From NCBI GenBank assembly GCA_030950375.1, contig JAUZRN010000023.1, forward strand, positions 1 through 61,727: 61,727 nt of DNA, read 5' to 3'. Every line of letters starts with the position of its first letter. Position 1 is the first letter of the stretch. Positions 22,231-51,046 of the stretch are shown piece after piece. Both the position numbers and the translations under genes were made by a program. A model generated the notes under the pieces. The model ran no database searches and was not told the DNA's origin. It saw only the letters and a program-made list of their open reading frames with translations. This DNA is from Rhodothermus sp. GTDB taxonomy: Bacteria; Bacteroidota; Rhodothermia; Rhodothermales; Rhodothermaceae.

Positions 22231-22339
22231 GGAAGTAACCGGATCTTTGCGTGCTTAACAGAAACATGCCAGAAACGAAGGGTTGGGAAGCGGGTTCTTG
22301 GAAGACATACAATATGCGTAACAAATCCGATATAAGTGT

Positions 22340-25083: not shown

Positions 25084-25226
25084 GAGGAAACCTGATGGCT
25101 GTTTGAAAGCGTTTCCGAACTACCTGATTTAAAATAGGACATACAGAGGGTCCCTGCCAACTCGAACGGACGTGCTTGTATCTGCAGCCAAAGATGTATA
25201 TTCCAGATCCAGCCGTAGATTAAACA

Positions 25227-26459
25227 ATGAAGCCCATGACCGACCGTGCCGCTTTCTTGTCCTCGCTGGAGTCGCGGCTGGCCTCACGTGCGCGTAACGT
25301 GCCTCCGAGCGGCATCCGGCGCTTTTTTGAGATTGCCGCCACGATGGATGATGTGATCTCACTGGGCATTGGCGAGCCGGATTTCGTCTCGCCACCAGCA
25401 GCTATTGAGGCGGCCATTGCTTCGCTGCGCGCTGGTCAGACAGGCTATACCGCCAATGCCGGGCTGATGGAGTTGCGCGAAGCGATTGCTGAGGAGCTGG
25501 CCCGACGCTACAGAGTGCATTACGATCCGGCTCGTGAAATTCTGGTTACCGTAGGGGTGGCCGAAGGCATTCAGCTGGCTATGCTGGCGTTGGTGGAGCC
25601 GGGTGACGAAGTGCTGATTCCGGAGCCCTGCTTTGTGTCGTACGGGCCGACGGCCATGTTTGCCGGGGGACGGGTGGTGTATGTGCCCACGTCGGTAGCG
25701 AACGATTTTCAAGTGACCGCTGCCGATCTGGAGCCCTACATTACGCCGCGTACCAAGGTGCTGATGATCGGCTATCCGAACAATCCGACCGGTGCTGTAC
25801 TGCGCCGAAAGACCATGGAGGAAATCGGGGAGCTGGTCGTTCGGCATGATCTGTTTATCATCTCGGATGAGATTTACGATCGGCTGATTTACGGTCGTGC
25901 CTATGAAGAAGGGCATGTGTGCGTGCCTTCGATTCCGGGGCTTCGCGAGCGGACCGTTTTGCTGGGTGGTTTTTCCAAGGATTATGCAATGACGGGATGG
26001 CGTATTGGCTACGCCTGTGCGCCGGAGCCCATTTTGAAGGCGATGTACAAGTTGCACCAGTACATTGTGATGAGCGCGCCTACTATGGGGCAGGTGGCTG
26101 CTTTGGCAGCCCTTCGGGAGGCGCAGGAGGATGTGGAGCGGATGCGTCGGGCCTACGACGAACGGCGGAGAGTGATTGTGGACGGTCTGCGCGCGGCCGG
26201 TTTGCCCACGTTTGAGCCGGAGGGGGCTTTTTACTGCTTCCCGGACATTCGTTCGACCGGACTCACCTCCGAAGTGTTCGCCCAGCGGTTGTTGCGGGAG
26301 GAGCGGGTGGCGGTGGTGCCGGGGGATGCGTTCGGGCCCAGTGGGGATGGGTATGTGCGGTGTTCGTATGCGACCTCGCTGGAGAATGTGCGGGAGGCGG
26401 TGCGTCGGATTCAGCGGTTTGTAGCGCGGGTGAAGGAGGAACAGCGGGTGGAAACCTGA
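25227..26459 (+). CDS. Class I/II pyridoxal-phosphate aminotransferase
   Basis: The 410-residue enzyme transfers amino groups between an amino acid and a 2-oxo acid. ISLGIGEPDF, the NNPTG motif (IGYPNNPTGAVL), SDEIYDRLIY and the PLP lysine in GGFSKDYAMTGWRIGY are all present. It fits the aspartate/aromatic aminotransferase group (PatA-like). The last 180 bases of the gene have extreme G-ending codon choice (GTG, GCG, CGG, GGG), unlike its first half. This G-rich tract runs up to repeat A, just before prfB. Confidence 0.92.
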   Translation: MKPMTDRAAFLSSLESRLASRARNVPPSGIRRFFEIAATMDDVISLGIGEPDFVSPPAAIEAAIASLRAGQTGYTANAGLMELREAIAEELARRYRVHYDPAREILVTVGVAEGIQLAMLALVEPGDEVLIPEPCFVSYGPTAMFAGGRVVYVPTSVANDFQVTAADLEPYITPRTKVLMIGYPNNPTGAVLRRKTMEEIGELVVRHDLFIISDEIYDRLIYGRAYEEGHVCVPSIPGLRERTVLLGGFSKDYAMTGWRIGYACAPEPILKAMYKLHQYIVMSAPTMGQVAALAALREAQEDVERMRRAYDERRRVIVDGLRAAGLPTFEPEGAFYCFPDIRSTGLTSEVFAQRLLREERVAVVPGDAFGPSGDGYVRCSYATSLENVREAVRRIQRFVARVKEEQRVET

Positions 26460-26507
26460 GTGGGTTCTGGTCGTTGCCAGGAGCCTATTAGAGGAGCGGT
26501 GGTTAGG

Positions 26508-26537
26508 TGTGCAACTAAATCCGTTATTGCAATGCAA
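26508..26537 (+). repeat. Repeat element copy A, spanning the prfB start codon
   Basis: TGTGCA, six bases, then TCCGTTATTGCAATG (26520-26534) and CAA. Copy B before the epimerase gene matches it at 27 of 30 positions and also contains the start ATG. The core holds the palindrome TTGCAATGCAA. The 240 bases to the left have 108 G and 42 C by hand count, and the right side is A-rich. Confidence 0.7.
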
Positions 26538-27648
26538 GAAAAAATCCAAAGCCTGTTAGAGCGTGTGGACACGCTCGGGAGGTTTCTTTGACATCCCCGG
26601 GCGACGACAGAAAATTGCGCGGCTAAACGAAGAGCGGTTGGCGCCGGGTTTCTGGAATGACCCCCAGCGGGCGCGTGAGGTAGAGAAGCAGATTGCCGAG
26701 GAAGAATCCTGGGTGACGGCGTGGGAGCGTCTGCGCCGTCAGGCCGAGGACGTGCAGACCCTGCTGGAATTGCAACAGGAGGAACCCGAAGCGGATCTTC
26801 AGGAGGAACTTGCCCAGGAGGTGGCCCGCCTGGAGCAGCAGCTTGACGAACTGGAGCTGCGGAGTCTGCTGACTGACCCTGACGATCATCGGAATGCCAT
26901 TCTGACCATTCATCCAGGAGCGGGTGGAACGGAAAGCCAGGACTGGGCGGAGATGCTCCTGCGTATGTACACCCGATGGGGAGAGCGGCACGGCTACGAC
27001 GTGGAGCTTCTTGAATACCAGGCGGGTGATGTGGCCGGTATCAAGAGTGCCTCGCTGCGTATTGCCGGACCTTACGCTTACGGATACCTGAAAGGCGAGT
27101 CCGGCGTGCATCGACTGGTGCGTATTTCGCCGTTTGATGCAAGCGGCCGGCGCCATACTTCATTTGCCAGTGTGTTTGTCTATCCGGAAATCGACGACAC
27201 GATTGAGGTCAACATTCGCCCGGATGAGATCGAAATGCAGACGTTCCGCAGTAGCGGAAAAGGAGGGCAGAACGTCAACAAGGTCGAAACGGGTGTACGT
27301 CTGATCTGGCGTGGTAAGCTTTCCAATGGGGAAGAGGCTAAGGTGGTTGCTGAGTGCACGGAAGAACGCAGTCAGCTCCAGAACCGGCAGCGGGCCCTTA
27401 CGATGCTTAAAAGCCGCATCTACCAGCTGGAGCGGGAGATCCGGGAGGCGGAAAAGCGTAAACGAGAGTCTCAGAAGAAAAAGATCGAATGGGGCAACCA
27501 GATCCGTTCTTACGTCTTTCAACCGTACACGATGGTCAACGACCATCGCACCGAAACTAAAATAACGGATGTGCAGGCCGTTATGGACGGTGACCTGGAC
27601 CCGTTCATTCGGGCCTACCTGCTATCGCAGGTGAACGAAGTCTCTTAA
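26532..27648 (+). CDS. prfB: Peptide chain release factor 2, with programmed +1 frameshift
   Basis: RF2 ends translation at UGA and UAA. Translation starts at ATG 26532 and runs 19 codons to an in-frame TGA (26589-26591). A +1 slip at CTT reads GAC and continues in the frame of the main body, giving about 371 residues in total. The main frame contains the peptidyl-tRNA hydrolysis motif GGQ (SSGKGGQNVNKVETG). The SPF codon-recognition loop of RF2 is seen as HRLVRISPFDASGRRHTSFAS. nadB starts one base after the stop and is probably co-transcribed. The start codon lies inside repeat A. Confidence 0.95.
26577..26592 (+). promoter_or_regulatory. RF2 programmed frameshift site
   Basis: GGGAGG (26577-26582, a Shine-Dalgarno-like spur) is followed by TTT CTT TGA C. 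Slow reading of UGA when RF2 is scarce lets the CUU-bound ribosome slip to GAC. This is the classic autoregulatory site, with CTT TGA C identical to that of E. coli. Confidence 0.93.
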
Positions 27649-27649
27649 G

Positions 27650-29251
27650 ATGCCCGAGCGCTATCAGTTCGACTTCCTGGTTATCGGGAGTGGCATCGCG
27701 GGTCTGACGTTTGCCCTGCGCGTGGCCAACCATGGCTCAGTAGCTCTTGTGACTAAAAAGGAAAGCGTCGAATCCAACACGAATTACGCGCAGGGGGGCA
27801 TCGCGGCCGTCATGGATGCGGCCGACTCGTTTGAGCAACATGTGCAGGATACGCTCGAAGCAGGGGCAGGATTATGTGATCGCGAGGTAGTGGAGACCGT
27901 GGTGCGGGAAGGCCCGGAGCGGATTCGTGAGTTGATTGCGCTCGGGGCTCAGTTTACCTATGAGAACGGACGACTTCACCTGGGGCGTGAGGGCGGACAT
28001 TCGCGGAATCGTATTGTGCACGCCGCTGATGCGACGGGCCGTGAGGTTGAGCGGACCTTGCTGGCGCACGTGCGGGCCCATCCCAACATCCACATCTTTG
28101 AATACCACTATGCCGTCGATCTGATCACCGAACATCATTTGGGGCAGTACGTCTCGCGTCTGCGTCCCGACATTCACTGCTTCGGAGCGTACGTGTTGGA
28201 TGAGCGTGCGGATGTTGTACATACGTTTCTGGCAAAAGCGACTTTGCTGGCTACCGGCGGCTCCGGCCAGGTGTACCTGCACACCACCAATCCGTTGGTA
28301 GCCACGGGCGACGGGGTTGCCATGGCCTATCGGGCCAAGGCTCGTGTGGCCAACATGGAGTTTATTCAGTTCCATCCGACCACGCTTTTTGATCCAGAAG
28401 GCACGGAAGATCGTTCGTTCTTGATCAGCGAAGCTGTGCGGGGAGAGGGAGCGCGGCTTTACAATCTGGCCGGCGAACGCTTCATGCTCCAGTATGATCG
28501 GCGGGCTGAGCTGGCGCCTCGCGACATTGTAGCCCGTGCCATTGACGATCAGCTCAAGCGGCGTGGTGAGCCGCATGTATGGCTGGACATTTCGCATCGG
28601 CCGGCCGAGGAGATCAAGCGGCGCTTTCCGAACATCTATCAAACCCTGCTGCGCTATGGCATCGACATGACGCAGCAACCCATCCCGGTAGTACCGGCAG
28701 CGCACTATCAGTGCGGGGGCGTGCTGACTGACCTGCACGGTCGTACCACGATCCATGGGCTCTACGCAGCTGGTGAAGTGGCCTGCACGGGGTTACACGG
28801 GGCCAACCGGCTGGCCAGTAACTCGCTGCTGGAGGCCCTGGTTTTTGCGCGGCGTGCGGCCGAAGACGCCATACAGTACGTTCAGGCACAGACCTGGCGT
28901 ACGGACGTGCCCGCCTGGGATGATCGGGGCACTGAGCGTCCGCAGGAATGGGTGCTCATTTCGCACAATCGGGATGAATTGCGCCGGATTATGTGGGATT
29001 ATGTGGGCATCGTACGCTCGCAACTTCGTCTGGAGCGCGCGCTGCGCCGTACCCGTTTGCTCTACGAAGAAACAGAGGACTTCTACCGGCGGGCTCGGCT
29101 TTCGCCGGGATTGTGTGAGCTGCGCAACATGATTGCCGTCGCCTATCTGATTATTCGAAGTGCGCAGATGCGGCGTGAAAGCCGCGGGTTGCACTATATG
29201 CTGGACTATCCCGAACCCGTCGAAAGCGAACGGAGACCCACGCTGGTCTGA
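27650..29251 (+). CDS. nadB: L-aspartate oxidase
   Basis: NadB oxidises L-aspartate to iminoaspartate, the first step of de novo NAD synthesis. The FAD motif VIGSGIAGLTFAL is at residues 11-23. ESNTNYAQGGIAAV, GREGGHSRNRIVHAADATG and the ATGGSGQVYLHTTNP segment are family signatures, and YQCGGVLTDLHGRTTIHGLYAAGEVACTG follows (all read as conserved blocks). The length (533) is normal. No nadA or nadC is in the window. Two terminator hairpins follow. Confidence 0.95.
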   Translation: MPERYQFDFLVIGSGIAGLTFALRVANHGSVALVTKKESVESNTNYAQGGIAAVMDAADSFEQHVQDTLEAGAGLCDREVVETVVREGPERIRELIALGAQFTYENGRLHLGREGGHSRNRIVHAADATGREVERTLLAHVRAHPNIHIFEYHYAVDLITEHHLGQYVSRLRPDIHCFGAYVLDERADVVHTFLAKATLLATGGSGQVYLHTTNPLVATGDGVAMAYRAKARVANMEFIQFHPTTLFDPEGTEDRSFLISEAVRGEGARLYNLAGERFMLQYDRRAELAPRDIVARAIDDQLKRRGEPHVWLDISHRPAEEIKRRFPNIYQTLLRYGIDMTQQPIPVVPAAHYQCGGVLTDLHGRTTIHGLYAAGEVACTGLHGANRLASNSLLEALVFARRAAEDAIQYVQAQTWRTDVPAWDDRGTERPQEWVLISHNRDELRRIMWDYVGIVRSQLRLERALRRTRLLYEETEDFYRRARLSPGLCELRNMIAVAYLIIRSAQMRRESRGLHYMLDYPEPVESERRPTLV

Positions 29252-29336
29252 GGAACCCGCTTCGCAGGCGGTCGTTTATCCGTCGGAAGTGAGCGGGTTG
29301 TAGGGTCGCCTCCACGGAACGGAGTCGGTGTGTACG

Positions 29337-29364
29337 AAAAGGGGGGCTCAAGCCGCCCTTTTTT
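29337..29364 (+). terminator. First terminator hairpin after nadB
   Basis: AAAAGGGGGGC pairs with GCCGCCCTTTT over an 11-bp stem with one G-G mismatch and a 4-base loop, ending in six T. It probably ends the prfB-nadB transcript. Confidence 0.75.
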
Positions 29365-29385
29365 CGTTCAACCCGCTCAGGTAGT

Positions 29386-29418
29386 AACGCCCGGCCGTCC
29401 GTGGTGCGGGCGTTTTTT
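29386..29418 (+). terminator. Second terminator hairpin, 17 bases before rimP
   Basis: AACGCCCG (29386-29393) pairs with CGGGCGTT (29407-29414), followed by six T. Its place directly before rimP, the first gene of the nusA operon, makes it a possible attenuator rather than only a second stop. Confidence 0.75.
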
Positions 29419-29434
29419 ACAGCGGAGAACGACG

Positions 29435-29917
29435 ATGATGCAAGCAGCATACGGGATGTCGGCGCTGATCGAGCAGATCCGCGCCCGGGTTGAAGAGGTT
29501 TTGCAGGGGACGTCGTTCTTTCTGATTGATGTTGTTGTGCGCGGCCGACGAGGGGCGCCTGTGGTTGAGATCTATATTGACGGCGACCACGGCCCCTCAC
29601 TTCGGGACCTGGAGCACTTGAGTCGAGAGATCGGTTTTTTACTCGATAGTGATGAACTTTTGCCCGGCTCGTACACGCTGAATGTGTCCTCGCCGGGCGT
29701 TGATCGGCCGCTGGTGCATCCCCGACAGTACCCTAAACATGTGGGGCGCGAGTTGGAGGTGCAGCTGGTGGCTGCCGAAGAAGGATTGGCTGAGCGACTG
29801 CGCGGGACGTTGCGGCAGGCCGATGCCGAAGCGATTGAGCTGCAACTTCCCGACGGATCGCAACGCCGATTGCGCTATGAAGAAATTCAAACGGCCCGCG
29901 TCTGTCTGCCCTGGTAA
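29435..29917 (+). CDS. rimP: Ribosome maturation factor RimP
   Basis: RimP helps assemble the 30S subunit. The product (160 residues from the first of two ATGs) shows VVEIYIDGDHGPSLRDLEHLSREIGFLLD and NVSSPGVDRPLVHPRQYPKHVGRE, both family blocks, and ends with an SH3-like C-terminal domain. The open frame extends upstream through the two terminators, so the ATG at 29435 is the sensible start. It heads the conserved operon rimP-nusA-infB-rbfA-truB. Confidence 0.93.
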   Translation: MMQAAYGMSALIEQIRARVEEVLQGTSFFLIDVVVRGRRGAPVVEIYIDGDHGPSLRDLEHLSREIGFLLDSDELLPGSYTLNVSSPGVDRPLVHPRQYPKHVGRELEVQLVAAEEGLAERLRGTLRQADAEAIELQLPDGSQRRLRYEEIQTARVCLPW

Positions 29918-29948
29918 GGCGGGCCCTAAAGCCGTTGACAGGTGAGCC

Positions 29949-31214
29949 ATGCAGAACAGCGAGCTGGTATCTTCCTTTGCGGAGATTGCCCACTCAAAGG
30001 GCATCGATCGGGATACCCTCCAGTTGATCGTCGAGGATGTCTTCCGGGCCATGATCCGGAAGCGCTATGGATCGGACGAAGCATTCGAGATCATCTTTAA
30101 CCCGGATCATGGCGATATCCAGATCCTCCACATTCGGGAAGTTGTGCCCGACTGGGAGCTGGAGGATCCCGTTACCCAGATTGAGCTGAGTGAGGCGCGC
30201 AAGATTGATCCCGACTTTGAAGTCGGTGACGAAGTGGCCAGCGAACTCAATATTTCTGAGTTCGGGCGACGGGCGATTATGACGGCGCGCCAGACGTTCA
30301 GCCAGCGCATTCGGGATCTGGAAAAAGAAAAGATCTATCAGGAGTATTCAGAGCTCGTCGGTGAGATCGTGGTCGGCGAGATCTACCAGATCCGTCGACG
30401 CGAAGTGCTGGTCATGCACAATCGCACAGAGCTCATCCTGCCGCGTGAAGAACAGATTCCACGGGATCGCTATCGCAAGGGGGATACGCTGCGGGCCGTG
30501 GTCAAAGAAGTGCGGCGTGAGTCCGGTGGTGCACCGCAGGTGATTATCAGTCGCGCCGATCCGGTCTTTCTGGAGCGGCTGCTTGAGCTTGAGGTGCCCG
30601 AGATCGAAGAGGGGATCGTGGAGATTAAAAAGATCGTGCGGGAGCCCGGCGAGCGCGCCAAGGTCGCAGTGGTCAGCCATGATGAGCGCGTGGATCCGGT
30701 TGGTGCCTGCGTGGGACTCCGCGGCAATCGGATCTATGCAGTTGTACGTGAGCTTGCCAACGAAAACATCGACGTGATTGAATGGTCCGACGATCCCCGT
30801 GAGCTGATCAAGCGGGCGCTTGCGCCGGCCAAGCCGCTTTCGGTAACGCTTAATGAGGAGGTTGATCCGCCACGTGCCAAGGTGGTTGTACGGGCAGAAG
30901 AGGTCAGTCAGGCGATCGGCCGTGGGGGCGTCAACATTCGGTTGGCGTCACGTCTGACCGGTTACGAACTGGATGTCTATCGTGAGATTCTGCCAGACGA
31001 AGAAGATATTGAGATTGAAGAGTTTGCGGACGAGCTGGATGCGTCGATCATTGCGCGTCTGCGTGAGATCGGTTGCGATACAGCCCGGGCCGTACTGGAT
31101 CTGTCGCTTGAAGAGCTGATGCGGCGTTCCGGGCTTGATGAGGAAACCGCACGGCGCGTGATGGATGTCATTCGCTCGGAGTTTGAAGAAGATGAAGAAG
31201 AACTGGAAGGCTAA
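29949..31214 (+). CDS. nusA: Transcription elongation/termination factor NusA
   Basis: NusA binds RNA polymerase and RNA and modulates pausing and termination. The 421-residue protein has the N-terminal polymerase-binding domain (residues 1-130), an S1 domain (about 135-205, [31 protein letters not shown] as a block) and two KH domains ([21 protein letters not shown] and [22 protein letters not shown]). It ends in an acidic helix-hairpin-helix-like tail. It follows rimP by 31 bases. Confidence 0.96.
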
Positions 31215-31246
31215 CCGCCGATAGAGGCAGGACGCACCAGGCGCTT

Positions 31247-34015
31247 ATGGCAAAGAAGTTTAAAATTCGGCTTTTTAAGCTGGCCCGTGAGCTGAACGTT
31301 GGCATCGACACGATTGAGCAGCAGCTCAAGGAGCTGGGCTATGCCCGGGCCCTCTCGGGTCGGGGAGCCAATGCTGTGTTGGAAGATGAGGCAGCCTATG
31401 AGGCGCTGCTGGAGGCATTTGCTCACGACCGAGAGATGGCAGCCCGGCTCAAGGAATTGCGAGAGGCCCGGGGTGAAGCGGCTCGTGCCGCCAAGGTTGA
31501 GCCGGAGCCTCCAGCGACTGAAGAAGTGGAGGAGGCGGAAGCAGATGGGGCGTATGCGGAAACGGAAGCAGTGACAACGACCGAGGAGGTAGTTCCTGAA
31601 GCGGTCGATGAAGCCGTAGCGGTTGAGGTTCAGGAGCCCGCTGAAGCGTCCGAAGCGCCCGCTGAAGCTACGGATGAAGTAGTAGAGGAGCCCGAGACAG
31701 GGGAGGAGGTAGAAGTTGAAGAGGCAGCTGAAGAAACCGCTGAAGAAACGACAGAAGTTGCCGAGTCGATTGAAGCAACCGGTCCGGAGGTTCAGGAGGA
31801 CATATCAGAGACGGAGACGCCGGTTGTTGAAGCCGAGACCATAACAGCTCCTGAGACCGAGCAAGCAGAAGAGGACGAAGTCATTCGGGCGCAACGCTAT
31901 CAGCTTCAGGGGGCTAAAGTCATTGGTAAGATTGATCTCTCCAAGCTTGAAGAAGACGATGCACGACCTGGCAAGCGCAAGCGTAAACGCAAGCGTAAGG
32001 CGAAGCCAGCGCCGGAAGCGGTAGCCAAGGTGACCGTTGAAGAGGACGAGCCAGAAAAGCCACGTGCCAAGCGCAAACGCAAGCGCAAACGTATTCGTCG
32101 GGTTGATGAGGAGGAGGTTGAGCAGTCGCTTCAGGAAACGCTACGCGAGCTGGAGCAGGGCGTCAGTCGCATTCGTCAGCGACGCCGTCGAGAGCGCCGG
32201 GAGCGTCATGCCCAGGAACGCGAACGTGAAGCGCAGCAGGAAGCGCAGGAGGCACGTAAGCTGCGCGTCACGGAATATATTTCTACAGGCGAGCTGGCCG
32301 AATTGATGGGGGTCGATGTCAGCGAGGTGATCTCGGCGCTTTTCAATGCAGGCATGATTGTCTCGATCAATCAGCGGCTGGACGCCGACACGATCCAGTT
32401 TGTGGCTGATGAATTCGGCTACGAGGTTGAGTTCATCACCGACTATAACGAACTGGAGATCGAAATCCCCGAGGACCGTCCGGAAGATCTTCGGCCCCGG
32501 GCGCCCATTGTCACGGTGATGGGGCATGTCGACCATGGGAAGACGTCTTTGTTGGACTATATCCGCAATACAAACGTGGTGGCTGGTGAGGCGGGGGGCA
32601 TCACGCAGCATATCGGAGCGTACCATGTAGAACTGCCGGATGGGCGACACCTTACGTTTCTGGACACGCCGGGACATGAGGCCTTTACGGCCATGCGGGC
32701 ACGCGGTGCGAAGGTGACCGACATTGTGATTCTGGTGGTGGCTGCCGACGATGGGGTGATGCCTCAGACGGTTGAAGCCATCAACCATGCCAAGGCGGCT
32801 GGCGTGCCCATTGTCGTGGCCATTACCAAGATCGATAAGCCGGAGGCCAATCCGCAGCGCGTCATGCAACAGCTGGCCGAAAACGGGGTGCTGGTTGAGC
32901 AGTACGGGGGACAGGTGCAGTGTGCGCTGGTATCGGCCAAGACCGGGGAGGGTGTCGATGATCTGCTGGAAAAGGTGCTGCTGGAAGCGGAGCTACACGA
33001 GCTGAAGGCGAACCCCAACCGTCCAGCTGTTGGGACCATTATCGAGAGCCGGGTAGAAAAAGGGCGGGGCAATGTGGCTACGGTACTGGTTCAGAATGGG
33101 ACGCTCCGGGTAGGTGATCCGTTTGTGGCCGGGGTAACCAGTGGTCGGGTACGGGCGATGTTTGATGAGCGCGGAAAGCGGGTCAGGGAGGCTGGTCCAT
33201 CGATTCCAGTCCTGGTGCTTGGTTTTGATGAGTTGCCCGAGGTGGGCGACCAGTTTGTGGTCATGCCCGATGAGAAAGAAGCGCGCGCCATTGCTCAGAA
33301 GCGGCAGCAGATCCGCCGGGAGCAGATGCTACGCAAACAGCGTCGCATTTCGCTGGATGAAATCAGCCGGCGGATGGCCCAGGGCGGTTCCCTGAAGGAG
33401 CTGAACCTGATTATCAAGGGCGATGTCGCCGGATCGGTCGAGGCATTGACCGATGCCCTGCTGAAGCTTTCGACCGACGAGGTGGCTGTGAATATTATTC
33501 ATGGCGGTGTGGGCGCAATCACAGAAAGCGATGTAATGCTGGCGTCGGCCTCCGATGCGATCATCATTGGCTTTCAGGTGCGCCCGAGCAGTAGCGCGCG
33601 CCAGCTGGCCGAACGTGAGCATGTGGACATCCGGCTTTATTCAGTCATCTATCAGGCGATCGAGGAAGTGCGCGACGCGCTGGAGGGGCTCCTTTCGCCC
33701 GAGAAGACCGAACAGGTGGTGGGCGTGGCCGAGGTGCGCGAAACCTTCAAGATCCCGAAAGTGGGTACGGTGGCAGGTTGCCGTGTGGTCGAAGGGCGTA
33801 TCCGCCGGGGCGATCGCGTGCGGGTCATTCGCGATGGGGTGGTGATCTACGAAGGCACCATTTCGTCGCTCAGGCGCTTCAAAGATGACGTGCGGGAGGT
33901 GCAAAGCGGCTATGAGTGTGGGGTAGGGATTGAGAATTTCAACGACATCAAGGTGGGGGACCAGATCGAAGCCTTTGAAATTGTCGAACAGCGGCGCAAA
34001 CTGGAGGTCCGATGA
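31247..34015 (+). CDS. infB: Translation initiation factor IF-2
   Basis: IF-2 is the GTPase that brings fMet-tRNA to the ribosome. At 922 residues it has a long N-terminal part: a short IF2-N helix domain (residues 1-45), a Glu/Ala/Val-rich acidic region (about 75-220), and two Lys-Arg repeats (KRKRKRKRK near 245 and 280). The second IF2-N domain follows. The G domain begins near 427 with [12 protein letters not shown], then [15 protein letters not shown] and NKxD-type [11 protein letters not shown]. Beta-barrel and C-terminal domains complete it. Its stop overlaps the rbfA start (ATGA). Confidence 0.97.
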
Positions 34016-34392
34016 GCAGCAGCATTCGGGTGCAGCGTGTGGGCAGCCTGCTCAAGCGTGAGCTGGCCGATATTTTGCAGCACGAGTTCGGGGATCAGCT
34101 GCCTCCTATGACCACAGTCACGGATGTACAACCGACGCGGGATCTGTCCATTGCTAAGGTGTACGTGAGTATCTATGCGCCTGCGGAACAAAAGCAGGCC
34201 GCATTTCGACGTCTTCAGGAACTGACGCCCCAGATTCGGACCGTCCTGGCGCAACGTATTCGACACCAGATGCGCTTCATGCCCGAGCTTCGCTTTATTC
34301 TGGATGAGACCATGGAACGGGCGCAGCGGGTTGAAGAGCTGCTGGCACGCATTCGCGAAGAGCGGGCCCGCCGTGAAGGTCAGACCTCCTGA
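34012..34392 (+). CDS. rbfA: Ribosome-binding factor A
   Basis: RbfA binds the 30S precursor and aids 16S rRNA maturation. The 126-residue protein has [20 protein letters not shown] at the N-terminus, the [20 protein letters not shown] beta strand block, and the ending [19 protein letters not shown] typical of the KH-like fold. It overlaps infB by four bases and precedes truB by three. Confidence 0.94.
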
Positions 34393-34395
34393 TCT

Positions 34396-35151
34396 ATGTC
34401 CGTACCACTCCTGGAAAGTCCGGACCATCTGGTTTATGGTTATCCGCGCCTGCCCGATCGGTGGGAGGCGGCTGTTCTACTGATTGATAAACCCCGTGGA
34501 CTTACTTCTTTTGATGTGATTCGTCGGCTTCGGAAGTTGTTGCGCGTGCGCAAAATCGGGCACGCTGGTACACTCGACCCGCTGGCCACGGGCCTGCTTA
34601 TCTGTCTGGTAGGGCGTGCGACACGCTGGATGACCTACTTTATGGCTCAGGATAAGGAATACGAGGGGGTTTTGCGCCTTGGTGAGATTACGCCATCCTA
34701 TGATGCTGAGACCGAAGTGATAGCGCGTCGCCCCTGGGAGCATCTGACGGATGAAGATCTGGAGCGTGTCCGACAGCAGTTTGTGGGCGAGCTTGTGCAG
34801 CAGGTGCCTGCCTATTCGGCGGTGAAAGTTAAAGGAAAAAGGCTTTACAAGCAGGTACGTACGGGTCAGGTGGTGGATCTTCCGCGTCGTCGTGTTCAGA
34901 TCTATGCGTTTGATCTGCTGGGGCGTGAGGGCCCTGATGTAACCTTCCGGGTGCATTGTTCGAAGGGCACCTATATTCGCAGCCTGGTGCATGACTTCGG
35001 GCAGGCGCTGGGATGTGGTGCGCATCTGGTGGCGCTCCGTCGTACACGCTCAGGGCCTTATCGCGTGGAACAGGCCTGGACCCTGGAAGCTCTGGCCGAG
35101 GCGCTGAAAGCACGGGCGTTGATACCTCCGGAGCGAAGCCATGAGGTTTGA
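34396..35151 (+). CDS. truB: tRNA pseudouridine-55 synthase
   Basis: TruB makes pseudouridine 55 in the T-loop of tRNA. LLIDKPRGLTSFDVIRRLRK and the catalytic block GHAGTLDPLATGLLI with its aspartate are clear, followed by YEGVLRLGEITPSYDAET and AYSAVKVKGKRLYKQVRTG. The protein is 251 residues, so the C-terminal PUA domain found in some family members is short or absent. It overlaps ribF by 11 bases. Confidence 0.95.
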   Translation: MSVPLLESPDHLVYGYPRLPDRWEAAVLLIDKPRGLTSFDVIRRLRKLLRVRKIGHAGTLDPLATGLLICLVGRATRWMTYFMAQDKEYEGVLRLGEITPSYDAETEVIARRPWEHLTDEDLERVRQQFVGELVQQVPAYSAVKVKGKRLYKQVRTGQVVDLPRRRVQIYAFDLLGREGPDVTFRVHCSKGTYIRSLVHDFGQALGCGAHLVALRRTRSGPYRVEQAWTLEALAEALKARALIPPERSHEV

Positions 35152-36079
35152 GCGTGGACTGGAGCAAGTATCGCATGATGCACGCTCGGTGGTGACCGTT
35201 GGCACCTTCGACGGCGTGCACCAGGGCCATCGGGCCGTGTTGCAGTTTCTGATGGGTCGGGCCCAGGAGCGCAATGGCGTCAGTACCGTGCTCAGTTTTG
35301 ATCCGCATCCGCGCGAGGTGTTGCGTGGAGAGCCGGTTCCTTTGCTGACAACGATAGAGGAGCGGGCCGAGCTGCTGGCCGAACTGGGCATTGACCGGTT
35401 TATTGTGCTCCCCTTTACGCCGGCGTTGGCTGCGATGCCAGCACGCCGATTTGTTGAAGAAATCCTCGTGCGTCGCATCGGGCTGCAAGCGATCTGTGTG
35501 GGCTACGATCATACGTTTGGACGTAACCGGGAGGGCAACGTCGCGCTGTTGCAGCAGCTGGGACCGCGGTACGGCTTTGCGGTCGATGTCATTCCTCCGC
35601 AGGTAGTGGATGATCGTACTGTTTCATCTACGCTGATCCGGACACTCCTGGTACGTGAGGGCGCAGTGCGCCAGGCGGCCGCATTGCTGGGACGGCCCTA
35701 CATGCTCCAGGCGACCGTGGTGCGTGGAGATGGACGTGGGCGCATGCTGGGATTCCCGACAGCGAACCTGCACCCTGTACATCCACGTAAGCTGATACCG
35801 CGCAACGGCGTCTATGCCGTTCGGGTGTGGTTACCCGAAACAACAACACCCAGAGATGGCATGATGAACATCGGCATGCGTCCCACGTTTGCCGGCGAAC
35901 GACGTACGCTGGAAGTCCATGTTCTGGACTTCGAAGGCGACCTGTACGGGCAGCAGATTCGGATAGACTTTATCGAGCGTCTTCGGGACGAGCAACGCTT
36001 TCCCTCTGTCGAGGCGCTTCGGGAGCAACTTTTTCGCGACCGCCAGCGTTGTATGGAAGTACTGCGGGCCTCAGTATGA
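35141..36079 (+). CDS. ribF: Bifunctional riboflavin kinase / FMN adenylyltransferase
   Basis: RibF converts riboflavin to FMN and then FAD. The N-terminal nucleotidyltransferase domain shows VTVGTFDGVHQGHRAVL and VLSFDPHPREVL, then VGYDHTFGRNREGN. The C-terminal kinase domain begins near residue 185 with GRPYMLQATVVRGDGRGRMLGFPTANL. The length (312) is normal. It is the last gene of the rimP operon by spacing. Its start lies within the end of truB. Confidence 0.95.
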   Translation: MRFERGLEQVSHDARSVVTVGTFDGVHQGHRAVLQFLMGRAQERNGVSTVLSFDPHPREVLRGEPVPLLTTIEERAELLAELGIDRFIVLPFTPALAAMPARRFVEEILVRRIGLQAICVGYDHTFGRNREGNVALLQQLGPRYGFAVDVIPPQVVDDRTVSSTLIRTLLVREGAVRQAAALLGRPYMLQATVVRGDGRGRMLGFPTANLHPVHPRKLIPRNGVYAVRVWLPETTTPRDGMMNIGMRPTFAGERRTLEVHVLDFEGDLYGQQIRIDFIERLRDEQRFPSVEALREQLFRDRQRCMEVLRASV

Positions 36080-36165
36080 GGTCTTCTTTTTGACACGCGG
36101 CTTTATCGGGAGTTGCGGGTCAGCTTCTTTAGCATGGTATCAATCTAAAGAGGGGACCACAGCAC

Positions 36166-36432
36166 ATGATCAGCAAAGAACGCAAACGTGAACTGATTCG
36201 GAAGTACGGCGCTCACGAGCACGATACAGGGCGCCCCGAAGTACAGATAGCGATCTTTACTCACCGCATCAACGCATTGACCGAGCATCTAAAGCGCCAT
36301 CCCAAGGATTTTTCCACGCGCCGTGGCCTGCTGAAGCTGGTCGGTAAACGGCGTCGCCTGCTCAATTATCTCATGCGTGAAGACATTGAGCGTTACCGCG
36401 CAATTATTGAGGAGTTGGGCATTCGTAAGTAA
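36166..36432 (+). CDS. rpsO: Ribosomal protein S15
   Basis: S15 is a primary binder of 16S rRNA in the small subunit. The 88-residue protein has the full conserved pattern: [49 protein letters not shown] (one uninterrupted family block, residues 17-65 or so). It lies 86 bases after ribF and 74 bases before pnp, the same order as in E. coli. Confidence 0.97.
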
Positions 36433-36441
36433 GCACGGGTC

Positions 36442-36467
36442 GGCGGCATCCCTGAGCGGATGCCGCC
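36442..36467 (+). promoter_or_regulatory. rpsO-pnp intergenic hairpin
   Basis: GGCGGCATCC and GGATGCCGCC form a perfect 10-bp stem with a 6-base loop. There is no T-run. In E. coli a hairpin in this gap is cut by RNase III and lets PNPase control its own mRNA. A similar role here is inference. Confidence 0.6.
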
Positions 36468-36506
36468 ACGCATATTGGGCCGTGGGGCCCACCAAAACGG
36501 TAGAGA

Positions 36507-38831
36507 ATGGCTATGATGACGCAGGCAACGATTCACGAGATTGAATTTGCCCCTGGGAAAACGCTGCGTCTGGAGACCGGGCGGCTGGCCAAGCAGGCCG
36601 ATGGGGCCGTGGTCGTCCGACAGGGCGATACCATGGTGCTCTGTACGGCCGTGCTGGCCGACGAGCCGCGGGAGGGACAGAGTTTTTTCCCGCTGACGGT
36701 AGAGTATCGGGAAAAATTTGCAGCAGGGGGTAAAATTCCTGGCGGCTTCATCAAGCGTGAAGGACGTCCGACGGATAAGGAAATCCTATCCTCACGCCTG
36801 ATTGACCGGGCAATCCGTCCGCTGTTTCCGGAGGGCTTTTTCCATGATGTGCAGATCATCTGCTATGTGATTTCTGCCGACGATCGGTATGATGCCGACG
36901 TGCTGGCGGGTACTGGTGCCTCGGCGGCGTTATTGCTGGCCGGCGCCCCGTTTGAGGGACCCATCGCCGAGGTGCGTGTAGGACGCATCGACGGTCAGTT
37001 TGTGGTCAATCCCTCGCTTCAGGAGCTGGAGCAGAGCGACATCAACCTGGTGGTGGCCGGCAAAGAGGACGCCATCGTGATGGTCGAGGGCGAAATGAAA
37101 GAGGTCAGTGAAGCAGATATGCTTGAAGCCCTCGAGGTGGCGCATGAGGCCATCCGCACGCTCTGCCGGGGACAGCTCGAATTCGTAAAAGCACATGGCC
37201 AGCCCGAGCCATTCGCCTACCAGGCAACAACGCTGCCGGAGGAGCTGGTGGCCCGCGTGCGTGAGCTGGCCGTGCCGAAGTTGGAGGCACACTTGCACGC
37301 ACCGTATGAGAAGCAGCGCTTTTACGAAGGACTGGAGCGAATCGGCGAGGAGACGGTTGCAACCCTGCTGAGCACGACCGATGAGGCGGGCCACCAGGTG
37401 CTGGCTGAGGCGACTCCTGAGGGCTGGACGGCCGATCAGATCCGGAAAGCTGTGGCGCAGGTAACCCGTGAGGTGATGCGCCAGATGATCCTGCGAGAAG
37501 GACGCCGGATCGATGGCCGCAGCCTGGAGGAGATCCGCCCCATCTGGATGGAGGTGGGATATCTGCCCCGGGTGCACGGATCGGCTATCTTTACCCGGGG
37601 CGAAACTCAGGTCATGGCTTCGGTAACGCTCGGCACGTCGAAAGACGTGCAGATGATTGACCAGATTTTCGTCACAGGCGATAAGCGTTTCTTCCTCCAC
37701 TACGAGTTTCCGCCTTTTTCCACAGGGGAGCTTCGGTTTCTGCGGGGGCCGGGACGTCGAGAGATTGGTCATGGTTATCTGGCCGAGCGGGCACTGGCCG
37801 CGGTACTGCCGGATGAATCTACGTTCCCCTATACGATTCGTGTGAATGCCGATGTGCTGGAGTCAAACGGCTCCTCGTCGATGGCCAGTGTATGTGCCGG
37901 CTCCCTGGCGCTTATGGACGCCGGTGTACCTGTAGCCAAGCATGTGGCCGGCGTGGCCATGGGCCTGATCAAAGAGGGAGACCAGGTGGCTATTCTGACC
38001 GACATTCTCGGTACGGAAGACCATCTGGGCGATATGGACTTTAAAGTGGCCGGCACGCGTGAGGGTATTACCGCCTGCCAGATGGATATCAAGATTGGTG
38101 GGTTGACGCGAGAGATTCTGCAACGCGCATTGGAGCAAGCGCGCCGTGCCCGGATGTATATCCTGGATCTGATGGAACAGACGATCGAAGCACCACGCCC
38201 GGAGCTGTCTCCCTATGCCCCACGGCTAACCCAGATCACCATCGATCCGGAATTCATTGGCGCCGTGATCGGTCCGGGCGGCCGTGTGGTCCAGGGGATT
38301 CAGCGCGAGACAGACACGACCATCGAGATCGAAGAGCGCGATGGGGTGGGGGTAGTTACGGTGGCAGCCACGAATCAGGAGAATGCCCGGCGCGCTATCG
38401 AAATGATCAAACAGATTGTCGCAGTGCCCGAGGTTGGGGCCGAATACGAGGGCATTGTGCGCAGCATTCAAAGCTTTGGCGCTATTGTGGAGATCATGCC
38501 CGGTAAGGAAGGGCTGCTCCACATCTCCGAACTGGATCATGGCTATGTCAAAGACATCCATGATTACCTGAAAGTAGGCGACAAAGTCCGGGTCAAGTTG
38601 ATCGAGATTCGTGAGGATGGCAAGCTGCGCCTCAGCCGCAAGGCTTTTCTGCCGCCGCCGGAACCTGAGGCAAAAAATGGCGAGCCGGCGCGTGCGCAGG
38701 TAGCCGGACGAAGTGGCGCGTCGACGCGCGGACGTGCTTCGGGACGTCCCCATGGCCCTGGCCACGGTCGGGGTGGTCGGGGAGGACGGGGACGCGGACC
38801 GGACCGTGGCCGGGGCGGCCGTCGCCATTAA
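36507..38831 (+). CDS. pnp: Polynucleotide phosphorylase
   Basis: PNPase degrades RNA 3' to 5' with phosphate, usually in the degradosome. The 774-residue protein has two RNase PH domains (first near residues 10-150, second near 325-460 with [20 protein letters not shown] and [14 protein letters not shown]). A KH domain follows near 575-630 ([26 protein letters not shown]), then an S1 domain near 645-715. The last 50 residues are Gly/Arg-rich, an RGG-like tail that may add RNA binding. A terminator follows. Confidence 0.97.
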
Positions 38832-38860
38832 GTGCCAGATTACACAGAGTGTGCTGGGTG

Positions 38861-38892
38861 AAGGCGGGGGCTGTCGGCTCTCGCCTTTTTTG
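38861..38892 (+). terminator. Intrinsic terminator after pnp
   Basis: AAGGCGGGGGC pairs with GCTCTCGCCTT (an 11-bp stem with G-U pairs) followed by six T. It lies inside the longest open frame of the next gene, which argues that this gene starts further downstream. Confidence 0.8.
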
Positions 38893-38923
38893 TATGGTAC
38901 AATCAACCAACCCGGAGCTACGG

Positions 38924-40180
38924 ATGTCGGTGCAAATGCTAACGGATACCACCACCTATCAGAAAACGGTATTACCGTGCGGCTTGCGTATCGTAACCGA
39001 GACGATCCCTTCAGTTCGGTCGGTGGCCGTCGGGCTCTGGGTGGACGTGGGAAGCCGGGATGAAGCCGAAGAAGAAGCCGGTATCACCCACTTTATTGAG
39101 CATATGGTTTTTAAGGGAACCGAGCGGCGTCGTACGCACCAGATTGCACAACGTATCGAATATGTGGGTGGATACCTGAACGCGTTCACCACGAAGGAAC
39201 ATACCTGTTACTATGTGCGCGTGTTGGATGAATACCTGGAGCGGGCACTGGATACGCTGATTGATCTGGCTTTTCGGCCGCGTTTCCCGGAACGGGAAAT
39301 CGAAAAGGAGAAGGAGGTGATTCTGGAGGAGATGAAGATGTACGAGGATACGCCGGATGAATACATCTTTGATCTTTTTGAAGCGCTTGTTTATGCCGGG
39401 CATCCATTGGGACGTCCTATCGTGGGACGGGCAGAGACAGTACGGTCCTTTTCGCGGGCGATGTTGCTGGACTTTATGGAGCGGCATTACACGCCTGATC
39501 GCATGGTGCTGGCAGCAGCCGGTCGGCTTGTGCACGCGCGCGTAGTAGCGCTTACGGAGCGATTACTACGCGGCGTGCCGTTGCGCCCCTCCAATCATCG
39601 GCAGCGGTTGCCGGCCCCTCCTTATCGCCCTGGCGAGCGGGTGGAACGACGCAGTGTGCAGCAGGCGCATCTGGTGTTAGGGGGGCGTGGCTACGATCTG
39701 CACCATCCGCAACGGGCAGCCCTCACCGTACTCAACACCTTGCTGGGAGGGGGGATGGCCAGCCGATTGAATCAGCATATCCGGGAGCGGTACGGTTACT
39801 GCTACAACATTTACTCGTTTGTTAATCTACATGCGGATGTAGGAGACTGGGGCGTTTACATGGGCACGGATCCGCGTCGGGTGGATCGGGCGGAGCAGCT
39901 CATCCGGCGTGAGCTGGACAAGCTGGTGCAGGCACCGGTGGGGCAGCGTGTGTTGACCCATGCCAAGAATCAGGTAAAAGGCACGTTGATGTTAGGGCAG
40001 GAGAGCATGAACAATCGGATGATGCGCTTAGGCCGACAGGAGCTGTATTTTGGTCGCTATTACAGTCTGGACGAGGCGTTGCAGGAGGTCGATCAGGTGA
40101 CGGCCGAGGAGGTACAGCAGGTGGCGCGGTCGTTGTTTGCGGAGCAGGAGTATTCGAAAGTGGTGTTATTGCCCGAGTGA
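38924..40180 (+). CDS. M16-family zinc peptidase (processing-protease type)
   Basis: M16 peptidases are clam-shaped zinc enzymes of the mitochondrial-processing-peptidase/insulysin family. The zinc motif is HFIEH (in GITHFIEHMVFKGTERR) with the distal glutamate in the EKEVILEEMKMYEDTPDE helix. A second inactive-like domain contains GGGMASRLNQHIRERYGYCYNIYS. Among the possible starts I use ATG 38924 (MSVQML), downstream of the pnp terminator. ATG 38894 and 38936 are alternatives. The 3' end is strongly G-rich up to repeat B. Confidence 0.92.
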   Translation: MSVQMLTDTTTYQKTVLPCGLRIVTETIPSVRSVAVGLWVDVGSRDEAEEEAGITHFIEHMVFKGTERRRTHQIAQRIEYVGGYLNAFTTKEHTCYYVRVLDEYLERALDTLIDLAFRPRFPEREIEKEKEVILEEMKMYEDTPDEYIFDLFEALVYAGHPLGRPIVGRAETVRSFSRAMLLDFMERHYTPDRMVLAAAGRLVHARVVALTERLLRGVPLRPSNHRQRLPAPPYRPGERVERRSVQQAHLVLGGRGYDLHHPQRAALTVLNTLLGGGMASRLNQHIRERYGYCYNIYSFVNLHADVGDWGVYMGTDPRRVDRAEQLIRRELDKLVQAPVGQRVLTHAKNQVKGTLMLGQESMNNRMMRLGRQELYFGRYYSLDEALQEVDQVTAEEVQQVARSLFAEQEYSKVVLLPE

Positions 40181-40235
40181 GGCGTTGTTGAGACCTTTTG
40201 CGTAAAAAGATTCTTTTGTAGCTTTCAGTGTAGTT

Positions 40236-40265
40236 TGTGCATCAAACTCCGTTATTGCAATGCAA
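40236..40265 (+). repeat. Repeat element copy B, spanning the epimerase start codon
   Basis: TGTGCA, six bases, then TCCGTTATTGCAATG (40248-40262) and CAA, as in copy A (27 of 30 identical). The ATG of the epimerase gene is the last three bases of the 15-base core. The 180 bases at 40021-40200 contain 68 G and 32 C by hand count. Confidence 0.7.
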
Positions 40266-41192
40266 AAAATACTGGTCACTGGAGGTGCCGGCTTTATCGG
40301 ATCGCACGTAGCCGAAGCGCTGCTGGCTCAAGGGCACGAAGTGCATATCCTGGACGACTTCTCATCGGGACGCGAAGAGAACATTCCGGGGGGCGCGGTT
40401 GTCCACCGTATGGATGTACGAGATAAGGCGGTTGCCGCGCTTTTCGCTCGGGAGCAATTTGCCATCCTGATTCATCATGCCGCGCAGATGGATGTGCGCC
40501 GTTCGGTAGCCGATCCGAAATTTGATGCGGATGTCAACATCATGGGGCTACTGAACCTGATGGAAGCCGGTCGGCAGTATGGGTTGGAGAAGGTCATTTT
40601 TGCTTCGACCGGGGGGGCCATCTATGGGGAGCCAGACTATGTACCGCAGGATGAAGCGCATCCGGTACGACCACTTTCGCCCTATGGCATTACCAAGCTG
40701 GCCTCCGAGAAGTACCTCTACTTTTATGAACAGCAGTACGGTATTCGCTACGTTGCGCTGCGTTATGCCAATGTATATGGGCCGCGTCAGAATCCACATG
40801 GCGAAGCCGGTGTGGTGGCGATTTTTACCCAGCGCATGCTTGAGGGCAAGCAACCGATCATTTATGGATCGGGCGAGCAGACGCGCGACTTTGTGTACGT
40901 CGGTGATGTGGTGGCGGCCAATCTGGCCGCGCTGACTTATGAGGGGTCTGGCGTTTTTAACATCGGTACTGGTATTGAGACCAGCGTCAACCAGCTTTTT
41001 CATATGCTGCGTGATCTGATCAATCCGGAGGTACCGGAGAGGCACGGAGAGGCCAAACCAGGCGAGCAGCAACGCAGCGTGCTGGGATATGAGCGGGCAC
41101 GTCAGATACTGGGGTGGGAACCGCGCGTGTCGCTTCAGGAAGGATTGCGACGCACTGTGGCATGGTTCCGTGCGCATGTAACTGTAGGCTAA
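40260..41192 (+). CDS. NAD-dependent sugar-nucleotide epimerase/dehydratase (GalE-like)
   Basis: This short-chain dehydrogenase acts on NDP-sugars, most like UDP-glucose 4-epimerase. The NAD motif TGGAGFIGSHVAEALL is at residues 7-22. The catalytic serine/threonine region is FASTGGAIYGE and the Tyr-Lys pair is in SPYGITKLASEKYL. YGSGEQTRDFVYVGDV is also typical. The length (310) fits. The start lies inside repeat B. It precedes scpA by six bases, so it may be transcribed with the condensin genes, although the functions differ. Confidence 0.92.
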   Translation: MQKILVTGGAGFIGSHVAEALLAQGHEVHILDDFSSGREENIPGGAVVHRMDVRDKAVAALFAREQFAILIHHAAQMDVRRSVADPKFDADVNIMGLLNLMEAGRQYGLEKVIFASTGGAIYGEPDYVPQDEAHPVRPLSPYGITKLASEKYLYFYEQQYGIRYVALRYANVYGPRQNPHGEAGVVAIFTQRMLEGKQPIIYGSGEQTRDFVYVGDVVAANLAALTYEGSGVFNIGTGIETSVNQLFHMLRDLINPEVPERHGEAKPGEQQRSVLGYERARQILGWEPRVSLQEGLRRTVAWFRAHVTVG

Positions 41193-41198
41193 ACCATC

Positions 41199-41951
41199 AT
41201 GTATCGCGTTCGGCTGCCCGTCTTCGAGGGGCCCCTGGATCTGCTCCTGTATTTCATCCGGCGGGATGAGCTGGACATCTACGACATTCCGGTGGCACGT
41301 ATTGCCGACGAATTCCTGGCCTATGTGCGGCTGATGGAGGAGCTGGATCTGGATGGCGTGGGAGACTTTCTCTATCTGGCAGCGGTGCTGTTGCACATTA
41401 AAGCGCAGATGCTGTTGCCTCGGCCTCCTGCCGAAACGGATGAAGAGGCGCCGGCTGAGGATCCCAGACAGGAGCTGGTAGCGCGTCTGCTGAATTACTT
41501 GCGTTACAAGGAAGCGGCTGCTCGGCTTGATGCCTATGCCGAAGCCCGCCAAAGACTTTATACGCGGGGAGCAGCTGCGGGAAGCGGGGACGAACAGGCA
41601 AGCGTCGGACCACCACCGCTGGCGCCCGTCTCGATACTGGAGTTGCTGGGGGCCTTACGGAAAGTGCTGGAGCGGAGGGTGCCCCCGCCCGACCACACCG
41701 TTCGGCGGGAGATCTACAGTGTGGAGGTACAGAGGCGCTACGTGCAGACGCAGCTCCAACGACGAAAGCGGTGTTCGTTTACGGCGCTGGTGGTCGGAAA
41801 GCCTCGTGGTTTTGTGATTGCGACGTTTCTGGCTGTACTGGAGCTGGCCCGACAGGGGCAGGTATGGTTGCATCTGCAGGAAAACGGAGACGACTTTCTG
41901 ATAGAGCTTACGGAAGCGCTGTCTGTGGAGGAAACCTATGCCGCAGCATAA
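41199..41951 (+). CDS. scpA: Segregation and condensation protein A
   Basis: ScpA is the kleisin that bridges the two heads of the SMC condensin. The N-terminus has the conserved FEGPLDLLLYFIRRDELDIYDIPVARIADEFLAYV. A middle acidic linker follows near residues 70-90, and the C-terminal winged helix ends with the FTALV and FLAVLELARQGQVWLHLQE pattern. The length (250) is normal. It overlaps scpB by 14 bases. Confidence 0.94.
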   Translation: MYRVRLPVFEGPLDLLLYFIRRDELDIYDIPVARIADEFLAYVRLMEELDLDGVGDFLYLAAVLLHIKAQMLLPRPPAETDEEAPAEDPRQELVARLLNYLRYKEAAARLDAYAEARQRLYTRGAAAGSGDEQASVGPPPLAPVSILELLGALRKVLERRVPPPDHTVRREIYSVEVQRRYVQTQLQRRKRCSFTALVVGKPRGFVIATFLAVLELARQGQVWLHLQENGDDFLIELTEALSVEETYAAA

Positions 41952-42585
41952 GGAAAATGGGAAAGCGGCTACGCCGTTGATGCAGGGGATTGAGGCTCTG
42001 TTATTTGTCGCTGATACGCCGCTGTCGGTCGAGGAGCTGGCCACGTTATGGGAGCGAGCTTACGGCACAAGGCCTTCTGCGGAGTCAGTGAGGGCGGCGA
42101 TTGAGGCGCTTAACCGGGTATATGCGGAGACCGGGCGTGTGTTACGCATTCAGCGGTGGGGCGGAGGGTATCGGTTGGCAACGGTGGCGTCAGTAAGTCC
42201 GTTATTGCAATGTTACAAACAAAAAGAAGTCAAACTCTCTCAGACGCTGCTGGAAACGCTGGCTATCATTGCCTACCGACAACCAATCACCAAGCCCGAA
42301 ATCGACCATATTCGCGGTGTCAACTCAGACTATGCACTTCGTCGACTTCAGGAGCTGGAACTGGTCACCGTTACCGGACGCAGCGATACCATAGGGCGAC
42401 CGCTATTGTACGGCACAACACAACGATTTCTGGAGCATTTCGGATTGGATAGTCTGGAAGATCTACCAGAGCTGCCCGAACTCGAACAGCTCCTTGAACA
42501 CCCCGAGATTCAACAGGAACACCTACGCTTTCTGTATCCACTGGAATCCGAGCATCAGGAGGCCGAAGCATCAACGAAGAAATAA
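41938..42585 (+). CDS. scpB: Segregation and condensation protein B
   Basis: ScpB binds ScpA as a dimer and completes the SMC condensin complex. Two winged-helix domains are visible: residues 15-85 (IEALLFVADTPLSVEELATLW, RWGGGYRLAT) and 95-165 (LETLAIIAYRQPITKPEIDHIRGV). The tail is acidic. The gene changes strand composition midway: the first 87 codons are G-rich, and the rest favours C- and A-ending codons. The change is at repeat C, which encodes SPLLQC between the two domains. Confidence 0.94.
   Translation: MPQHKENGKAATPLMQGIEALLFVADTPLSVEELATLWERAYGTRPSAESVRAAIEALNRVYAETGRVLRIQRWGGGYRLATVASVSPLLQCYKQKEVKLSQTLLETLAIIAYRQPITKPEIDHIRGVNSDYALRRLQELELVTVTGRSDTIGRPLLYGTTQRFLEHFGLDSLEDLPELPELEQLLEHPEIQQEHLRFLYPLESEHQEAEASTKK
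42198..42212 (+). repeat. Repeat element copy C, inside scpB
   Basis: The 15-base core TCCGTTATTGCAATG is exact, in the same orientation as copies A and B but inside a reading frame. The flanking TGTGCA part is not kept. By hand count the 120 bases at 42061-42180 have 50 G and 25 C, whereas 42241-42540 has 67 G and 90 C. Confidence 0.65.
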
Positions 42586-42675
42586 TTGCCTGAAAGCCGG
42601 GCACTTCTGACACCAGCTCTTCGTTTACATTGAACACCCGTAGGAAGACTTGCAGCTAACCAGCTCCTAACAGCG

Positions 42676-44962
<2,287 letters not shown>

Positions 44963-44971
44963 CAACAACCT

Positions 44972-46042: not shown

Positions 46043-46046
46043 CACG

Positions 46047-51044: not shown

Positions 51045-51046
51045 AC

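Follow-up and report, generated by a model that had tools for sequence, protein, structure and literature searches.

Three copies of one short sequence, each at the right-hand edge of a G-rich tract, raise the question of what kind of element they represent and why the composition of the two DNA strands should change where they lie. The stretch of DNA concerned (61,727 nt from Rhodothermus sp., here called the window) carries the 15-mer TCCGTTATTGCAATG at these three places, and a first-pass annotation had put forward a replication-fork barrier as the first of several explanations, with a recurrent double-strand break and 3'-tail resection as another. Judging from sequence comparison, we consider it highly likely that the motif forms the core of a polar Ter-like site and that its copies make up a third, independent replication fork trap in Rhodothermus and its relatives.

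Exactly three copies of the 15-mer are present in the window, all on the plus strand, with no fourth or reversed copy, just as had been counted by eye, and the sequence appeared in 0 of 100 shuffled windows. The 3.03-Mb genome to which the window belongs holds five copies and, at up to two mismatches, 15 places, compared with 6 for a reversed control. Since the first 13 bases are identical in 10 of these 15 places, the remaining five having two mismatches inside the 13, we take the core to be approximately TCCGTTATTGCAA (13 bp). This exact 13-mer occurs 10 times in the same genome (reversed control: 0) and 261 times across the order, where it was found in 75 of the 114 genomes sampled from 15 families (reversed control: 2); G and f labels below denote genomes and families of this sample. 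Each of the seven genomes of the genus Rhodothermus has 5–10 exact 13-mers. Enrichment over chance, which had been proposed as a check on the motif, is therefore clear both in its own genome and in the order. Across genome contigs in general the 15-mer is present in at least 119 stretches, from many phyla.

Where exact sites are lacking, a search at one mismatch gave a modest excess over the control: 34 hits against 20 in f4-g49, 17 against 8 in f2, 8 against 1 in f5, 35 against 11 in f14 and 26 against 10 in seven genomes of f15. Variant cores are also seen in single genomes, with 10 hits against 0 in G082, seven of them TCTGTTATTGCAA, and 12 one-mismatch cores among the 19 places of G002. 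Grouped by their flanks, the 175 sites that were read make 113 unrelated sets, which implies frequent gain and loss of sites. A few are old: the scpB site is found in G000 to G004 (in G002, G003 and G004 at the very place of site 3 of the window, and G001 scpB holds one too), prfB begins at a site in f1, f6 and f13, and one site common to f1 and f11 lies within the same gene. A gene of HNH type, by sequence reading, lies 49–106 bp downstream of a motif copy and in the same orientation in f4 (G103) and f1 (G000) (L322, L014), two cases only.

The features of the window are collected in Table 1. The maximum-likelihood change point of G against C falls one base before the third copy, with twice the log-likelihood ratio at 129.7 as against at most 17.8 in 200 shuffles. 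The break lies inside scpB, where the direction of transcription is unchanged: the 86 codons to the left of the copy have 47 G and 9 C at third positions, and the 130 codons to the right have 32 and 33. The third-position effect previously reported for the aminotransferase gene is confirmed (190 G, 93 C, 32 A, 96 T) and is found again in the left part of scpB. Because the plus-strand genes reverse their skew at the break without a change of strand, and the minus-strand genes to the left are also G-rich on the plus strand, the asymmetry points to replication and not to transcription.

Table 1. Coordinates of the Ter-like sites and of associated features in the window
Feature	Position	Strand	Remarks
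Ter-like site 1 (13-bp core)	26520..26532	+	15-mer ends in the ATG of prfB
Ter-like site 2	40248..40260	+	15-mer ends in the ATG of a galE-like epimerase gene
Ter-like site 3	42198..42210	+	within scpB; last + site on the contig
scpB	41938..42585	+	divided by site 3 into a G-rich and then a G-neutral part at third codon positions
Cumulative GC skew maximum and maximum-likelihood skew change point	42197..42197	.	support interval 42129-42295
Arm presumably copied by rightward forks	1..42197	.	third-position GC skew on the + strand: + genes +0.21 (with prfB out of frame; in frame prfB has +0.19), - genes +0.12
Putative trap interior, left part	42198..61727	.	third-position GC skew of + genes -0.21 to 47728; -0.07 for all + genes to the window end
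Xer-type tyrosine recombinase gene	49046..49975	-	inside the trap

The G-rich left flanks described earlier are real, the hand counts of G and C being correct to within one base (108/42, 69/32 where 68/32 had been given, and 50/25), and the G excess in the 240 bp to the left of the copies falls between percentiles 98.6 and 99.9 of the window. Ten distinct 240-bp tracts nevertheless reach the weakest of the three G values, three of them at copies, so tracts of equal strength do occur elsewhere and it is the break at the motif, not the G-rich tract alone, that is special. With arms of 240, 500, 1000 and 2000 bp the window's strongest break is found no more than 22 bp from 42198; with 150-bp arms it is at 1680. 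Of the A-richness reported to the right of each copy, a short stretch stands (13, 9 and 15 of the 30 bases that follow are A), and a part of it recurs as a weak preference for A at 16–19 bases from the motif start among 113 independent sites.

Several other features of the window deserve mention in their own right. Its first 2000 positions have a GC content of 0.36, against 0.57 in the window, and a strong skew, and are possibly acquired DNA. prfB starts at the ATG in the motif and has an in-frame TGA after 19 codons (26532-26592), like the programmed frameshift of release factor 2. A CRISPR array of five copies, with a repeat beginning GTAGCAAGACCTGACCCCAAGAAAAGGGGATTACGAC, occupies 61309-61727 and reaches the window end; type III-A-like csm genes lie beside it (50025-57214). 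Two minus-strand genes at 57227-60771 have domains of TOTE conflict systems (TBP-TOTE and helicase; DUF7017 and S1CSD-TOTE). In G002 a convergent pair of sites follows ORFs that were read as cas genes. Rfam at gathering scores and a tRNA scan gave no match in the window.

If the sites belong to a fork trap they should lie on both sides of the terminus in opposite orientations, and this is what is found. In all 22 contigs that carry exact copies on both strands, every plus copy lies to the left of every minus copy; these contigs span 11 genera and six families (f1, f3, f9, f11, f12 and f13), and the chance of such an order is 6e-16 as the product over all 22, or about 5e-9 with one contig for each of the 11 genera. 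The arrangement can be followed in G002, a single contig of 3,430,829 bp that begins with dnaA and dnaN, where plus copies lie to the left of the terminus and minus copies to the right. At up to one mismatch all 19 of its copies fit, of which about two may be chance as judged from the two hits of the reversed control, and the strand switch falls between 1,678,542 and 1,678,700. On the G018 chromosome, which also starts at dnaA, 11 of 12 copies fit, often as the variant TCTGTTATTGCAA, the exception being a site of the wrong polarity at 1711571. The three copies of the window are thus the left half of a convergent set, whose other edge is taken to be site 10082 of contig C62 by likeness to site 1569345 of G004.

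The switch in skew follows the same geometry in the relatives. The cumulative maximum lies between the innermost exact sites, or within 18 bp of them, in 11 of 13 continuous regions (G000, G001, G002, G004, G008, G016, G018, G036, G065, G067 and G076), a count that is favoured by the choice of regions around sites; in G026 and G035 the skew is weak and the maximum falls outside the trap. In G001 the maximum is at 586,781, 18 bp beyond a site, and two 2.5-kb bins at the left edge have a skew of +0.19 (+0.01 in the preceding bin); the interior ranges from -0.02 to +0.04, and the right side from -0.11 to -0.19. G004 is mostly positive up to 1,546 kb, mixed (-0.08 to +0.12) up to 1,570 kb and then negative. 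In a 380-kb stretch of G002 the maximum, at 1,678,537, precedes a one-mismatch plus site by five bases, and the strongest break is at 1,678,702 with 1-kb arms, at the convergent minus site, at 1,678,714 with 500-bp arms and at 1,684,712, at no site, with 300-bp arms. Single sites in this genome are noisy, 5 of the 14 in the stretch read having a 300-bp break near zero (-0.02 to +0.03). In three genomes the distance between the switch and a site is 1 to 18 bases, which means that past fork arrest might be readable from sequence at close to base resolution.

In the average over sites, the skew break that had been predicted for an alignment on the copies does appear. Over 106 flank-independent sites the GC skew 1,200 bp to the left is about +0.03 and rises towards the motif, reaching +0.124 in the closest 100 bp, and to the right it is +0.015, then +0.005, and returns to about +0.03 after 200–300 bp. 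The left-right difference over 300 bp is 0.090 (t 7.4) and is positive at 84 of the 106 sites. This sawtooth is alike at sites with and without the ATG, in open frames and intergenic regions and in three GC classes, and the break is weaker (t 1.9) at the 12 sites that lie in minus-strand frames only. Both kinds of control are flat: there is no skew break at pseudo-sites 700 and 900 bp away, nor, in other genomes, at 102 copies of the 15-mer (difference -0.022). For comparison, five Ter sites located with a loose consensus in six stretches of E. coli K-12 have a mean 300-bp break of +0.066 (s.e. 0.045; 4 of 5 positive), which is not significant.

A mechanism that would join these observations is as follows. 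With sites that flank the terminus on both sides and point inward, a fork reaching the TCCG end of a site would go through and a fork reaching the GCAA end would be halted by a bound protein, and forks would then enter the zone between the innermost sites freely and leave it with difficulty, as in E. coli. We infer both the binding of a protein and the arrest of forks, and copy 3 suggests which side blocks: it is the last plus site, and the DNA rightward of it is, by its skew, copied mostly leftward, so that forks coming from the right should stop at the GCAA end and those from the left should pass the TCCG end. A pure change of fork direction predicts a step, and the ramp of about half a kilobase therefore needs an extra local effect. 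It suggests that the lagging-strand template near the barrier stays single-stranded for longer, with C being lost from the plus strand on the left and G on the right; that the left arm of the sawtooth is larger than the right is not derivable from this model. The local sawtooth would then preserve a record, open to testing, of the exposure of single strands at a fixed barrier.

Of the explanations offered in the first-pass annotation it is thus the fork barrier that gains support, from the aligned skew break and from the inward orientation. A recurrent double-strand break or Chi-like recombination signal, at which resection exposes the plus strand on the left and the minus strand on the right, would give the sawtooth the sign that it has on either side, as expected of 3' tails. 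So small a number of copies, clustered at the terminus, is however unlike Chi, and their convergent polarity would be unexpected for such a signal and favours the barrier, so that we regard the proposal as very unlikely; breaks at arrested forks may be part of the mechanism, and would then be a consequence of the fork trap. Somewhat less remote, although still improbable, is a polar guide or mark of the terminus domain, in the manner of KOPS for FtsK or matS for MatP, that is read by a translocase or an organiser without stopping forks. The clustering of copies at the terminus, to which they point, agrees with this idea, as does the Xer recombinase gene that sits in the traps; in the nine relatives' regions with an Xer homologue, this is flanked by the innermost exact sites. 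The copies are nonetheless few in number for a sequence that guides a translocase, the motif is not palindromic as matS is, and a mark of this kind gives no reason for the skew to break at the sites.

A transcription operator or translation-start motif, the polarity of which would just follow that of leading-strand genes, is the least probable of the alternatives. It draws on the occurrence of the 15-mer at the start codons of prfB, galE and gyrA/parC-, gyrB/parE-, pta-, ribF- and pepP-like genes (most of them named by sequence reading), and on the motif upstream of a GntR gene in seven loci that are described below. The first loci found with the 15-mer often began genes, and a start-codon or leader motif was accordingly tried and rejected when the 13-mer was used: the ATG is present in just 23 of the 113 independent sites, so the pattern stems largely from the ATG of the query, and 63 of the 113 sites lie in a frame that is open across 150 bp on either side. 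The skew break is, moreover, indifferent to the ATG, and clustering at the terminus would be left unexplained.

Returning to the fork trap, we tentatively propose, as our best candidate for the binder of the sites, a conserved winged-helix protein of the GntR type, about 305 aa long and encoded by a single-copy gene. It was found by clustering the genes adjacent to sites, the motif lying at the 5' end of its gene in two families; a search by trap synteny was not productive, the shared trap genes reading as housekeeping genes, Xer and a LacI-type regulator. An orthologue is present in 83 of the 114 genomes, one in each (as two fragments in G101), and in 1 of 16 f15 genomes and in none of f10 and f14, families with few motifs; these three families may be one clade, in which case the joint absence of motif and protein may be one event. 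Of the genomes with a completeness of 90% or more, 41 combine the protein with at least two motifs, 20 have neither, 16 the protein only and 1 the motif only, kin genomes in these counts not being independent; altogether 33 genomes have the protein but fewer than two exact motifs, including the 16 above. In 7 of the 50 loci read, from six f13 genomes and one f12 genome, an exact motif lies no more than 350 bp upstream of the gene. In G073, G018, G028 and G037 its first base is 23 bp ahead of the start, in G076 75 bp and in G080 273 bp; in G056 motif and start overlap. A one-mismatch motif stands in this position in G082, which has no exact copies. All seven loci belong to a first set of 30; the others of that set, like every one of the second set of 20, have nothing closer than two mismatches upstream, and the motif is absent upstream of the gene in five f1 loci. 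Complete or near-complete chromosomes, where examined, have the gene in the neighbourhood of the terminus (G002 1,491,033; G004 1,438,551; G018 1,888,863), 16 kb from a site in G012 and, if the chromosome is circular, about 0.3 Mb off in G016. In the window's own genome it spans C52:3069-3956. It follows a small gene, the product of which ends in paired CxxC (zinc-ribbon-like by reading), in G002 (L209 10800-12200) and G065 (L288 6700-8100).

The N-terminal GntR winged helix of the candidate is clear (PF00392, E 4e-16). Known effector domains of GntR proteins are UTRA, FCD and the MocR aminotransferase domain; in one member Pfam gave no match past residue 115 at E 1. In the predicted structure (mean pLDDT 87.6, pTM 0.59) the winged helix is followed by a C-terminal domain that Pfam does not match, and the best 50 Foldseek rows are GntR-type proteins, aligned best over the N-terminal winged helix, with TM-scores by query length of at most 0.33. 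The recognition helix SFHTVRKAY is nearly invariant and is the same in four f4-g49 loci read, where the exact motif is absent, which counts against this protein as the binder unless the trap has decayed there. GntR proteins usually bind palindromes, and the non-palindromic core counts against a binder of this type.

A convergent pair of TCTGTTATTGCAA sites is also found on the second contig of G018 (35,505 bp), at 1,040 and 1,141 (L464 1040-1153), about 100 bp apart and directly after a Rep_3 initiator gene. The skew of this contig has its maximum near 20–21 kb, away from the pair, and so lends it no support. Plasmid R1 likewise has Ter sites beside its origin, according to a 2023 review (PMC10331603). 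Taken as a whole, the history that these data sketch is of an independently evolved third trap, spread over at least six of the 15 families and including a convergent pair by a plasmid-like rep gene, for which a GntR-type regulator would have been recruited as polar terminator, with autoregulation through a Ter site in some lineages, and the sites of which would have written a mutation sawtooth of about half a kilobase; we hold this fuller account to be possible rather than probable.

It remains to compare the sites with known systems. Tus-Ter of E. coli comprises about ten sites, short and asymmetric, that converge on the terminus. A further likeness is the position of tus immediately downstream of a Ter site, which resembles that of the GntR-type gene beside a site in two families here. 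The two differ in the site itself, the core TCCGTTATTGCAA being compared with an E. coli consensus AGNATGTTGTAAYTA (a loose form of which found the five E. coli sites above), and in phylum, Tus-Ter belonging to the Enterobacterales; Tus (PF05472) was found in 0 of the 114 genomes at E 0.001, with the E. coli control found. Other sequence marks linked to the terminus are matS/MatP, KOPS/FtsK and dif/Xer. Of these matS is a palindromic 13-bp site, KOPS are frequent 8-mers and dif is single, whereas the core tested here is not a palindrome, and none of matS, KOPS and dif is known to us to have a mutation break at every copy. RTP-Ter of Bacillus subtilis also has polar sites about the terminus. 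RTP (PF02334) was found over the cut-off in 0 of the 114 genomes, the B. subtilis control being found; one weak RTP-like match in G024 (E 2.7e-4), below the cut-off, was rejected. The 2023 review names the Tus and RTP traps, calls both convergent, and describes the RTP sites as two half-sites bound by two dimers (PMC10331603). No such system for Rhodothermus or its order was seen among the literature matches listed (titles and starts of abstracts, mostly open-access), and searches on Rhodothermus with 'replication terminus' and 'replication terminator protein', and on the 13-mer, found no paper. The class of function is known, then, and the site and its local mutation record are new, as probably is the protein. 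Should the GntR candidate be right, a winged-helix terminator protein would be common to RTP-Ter and the present system; and should the trap be borne out, it would be a third case, unrelated in sequence and in another phylum, which would mean that fork traps arise repeatedly and that the features they share can be compared.
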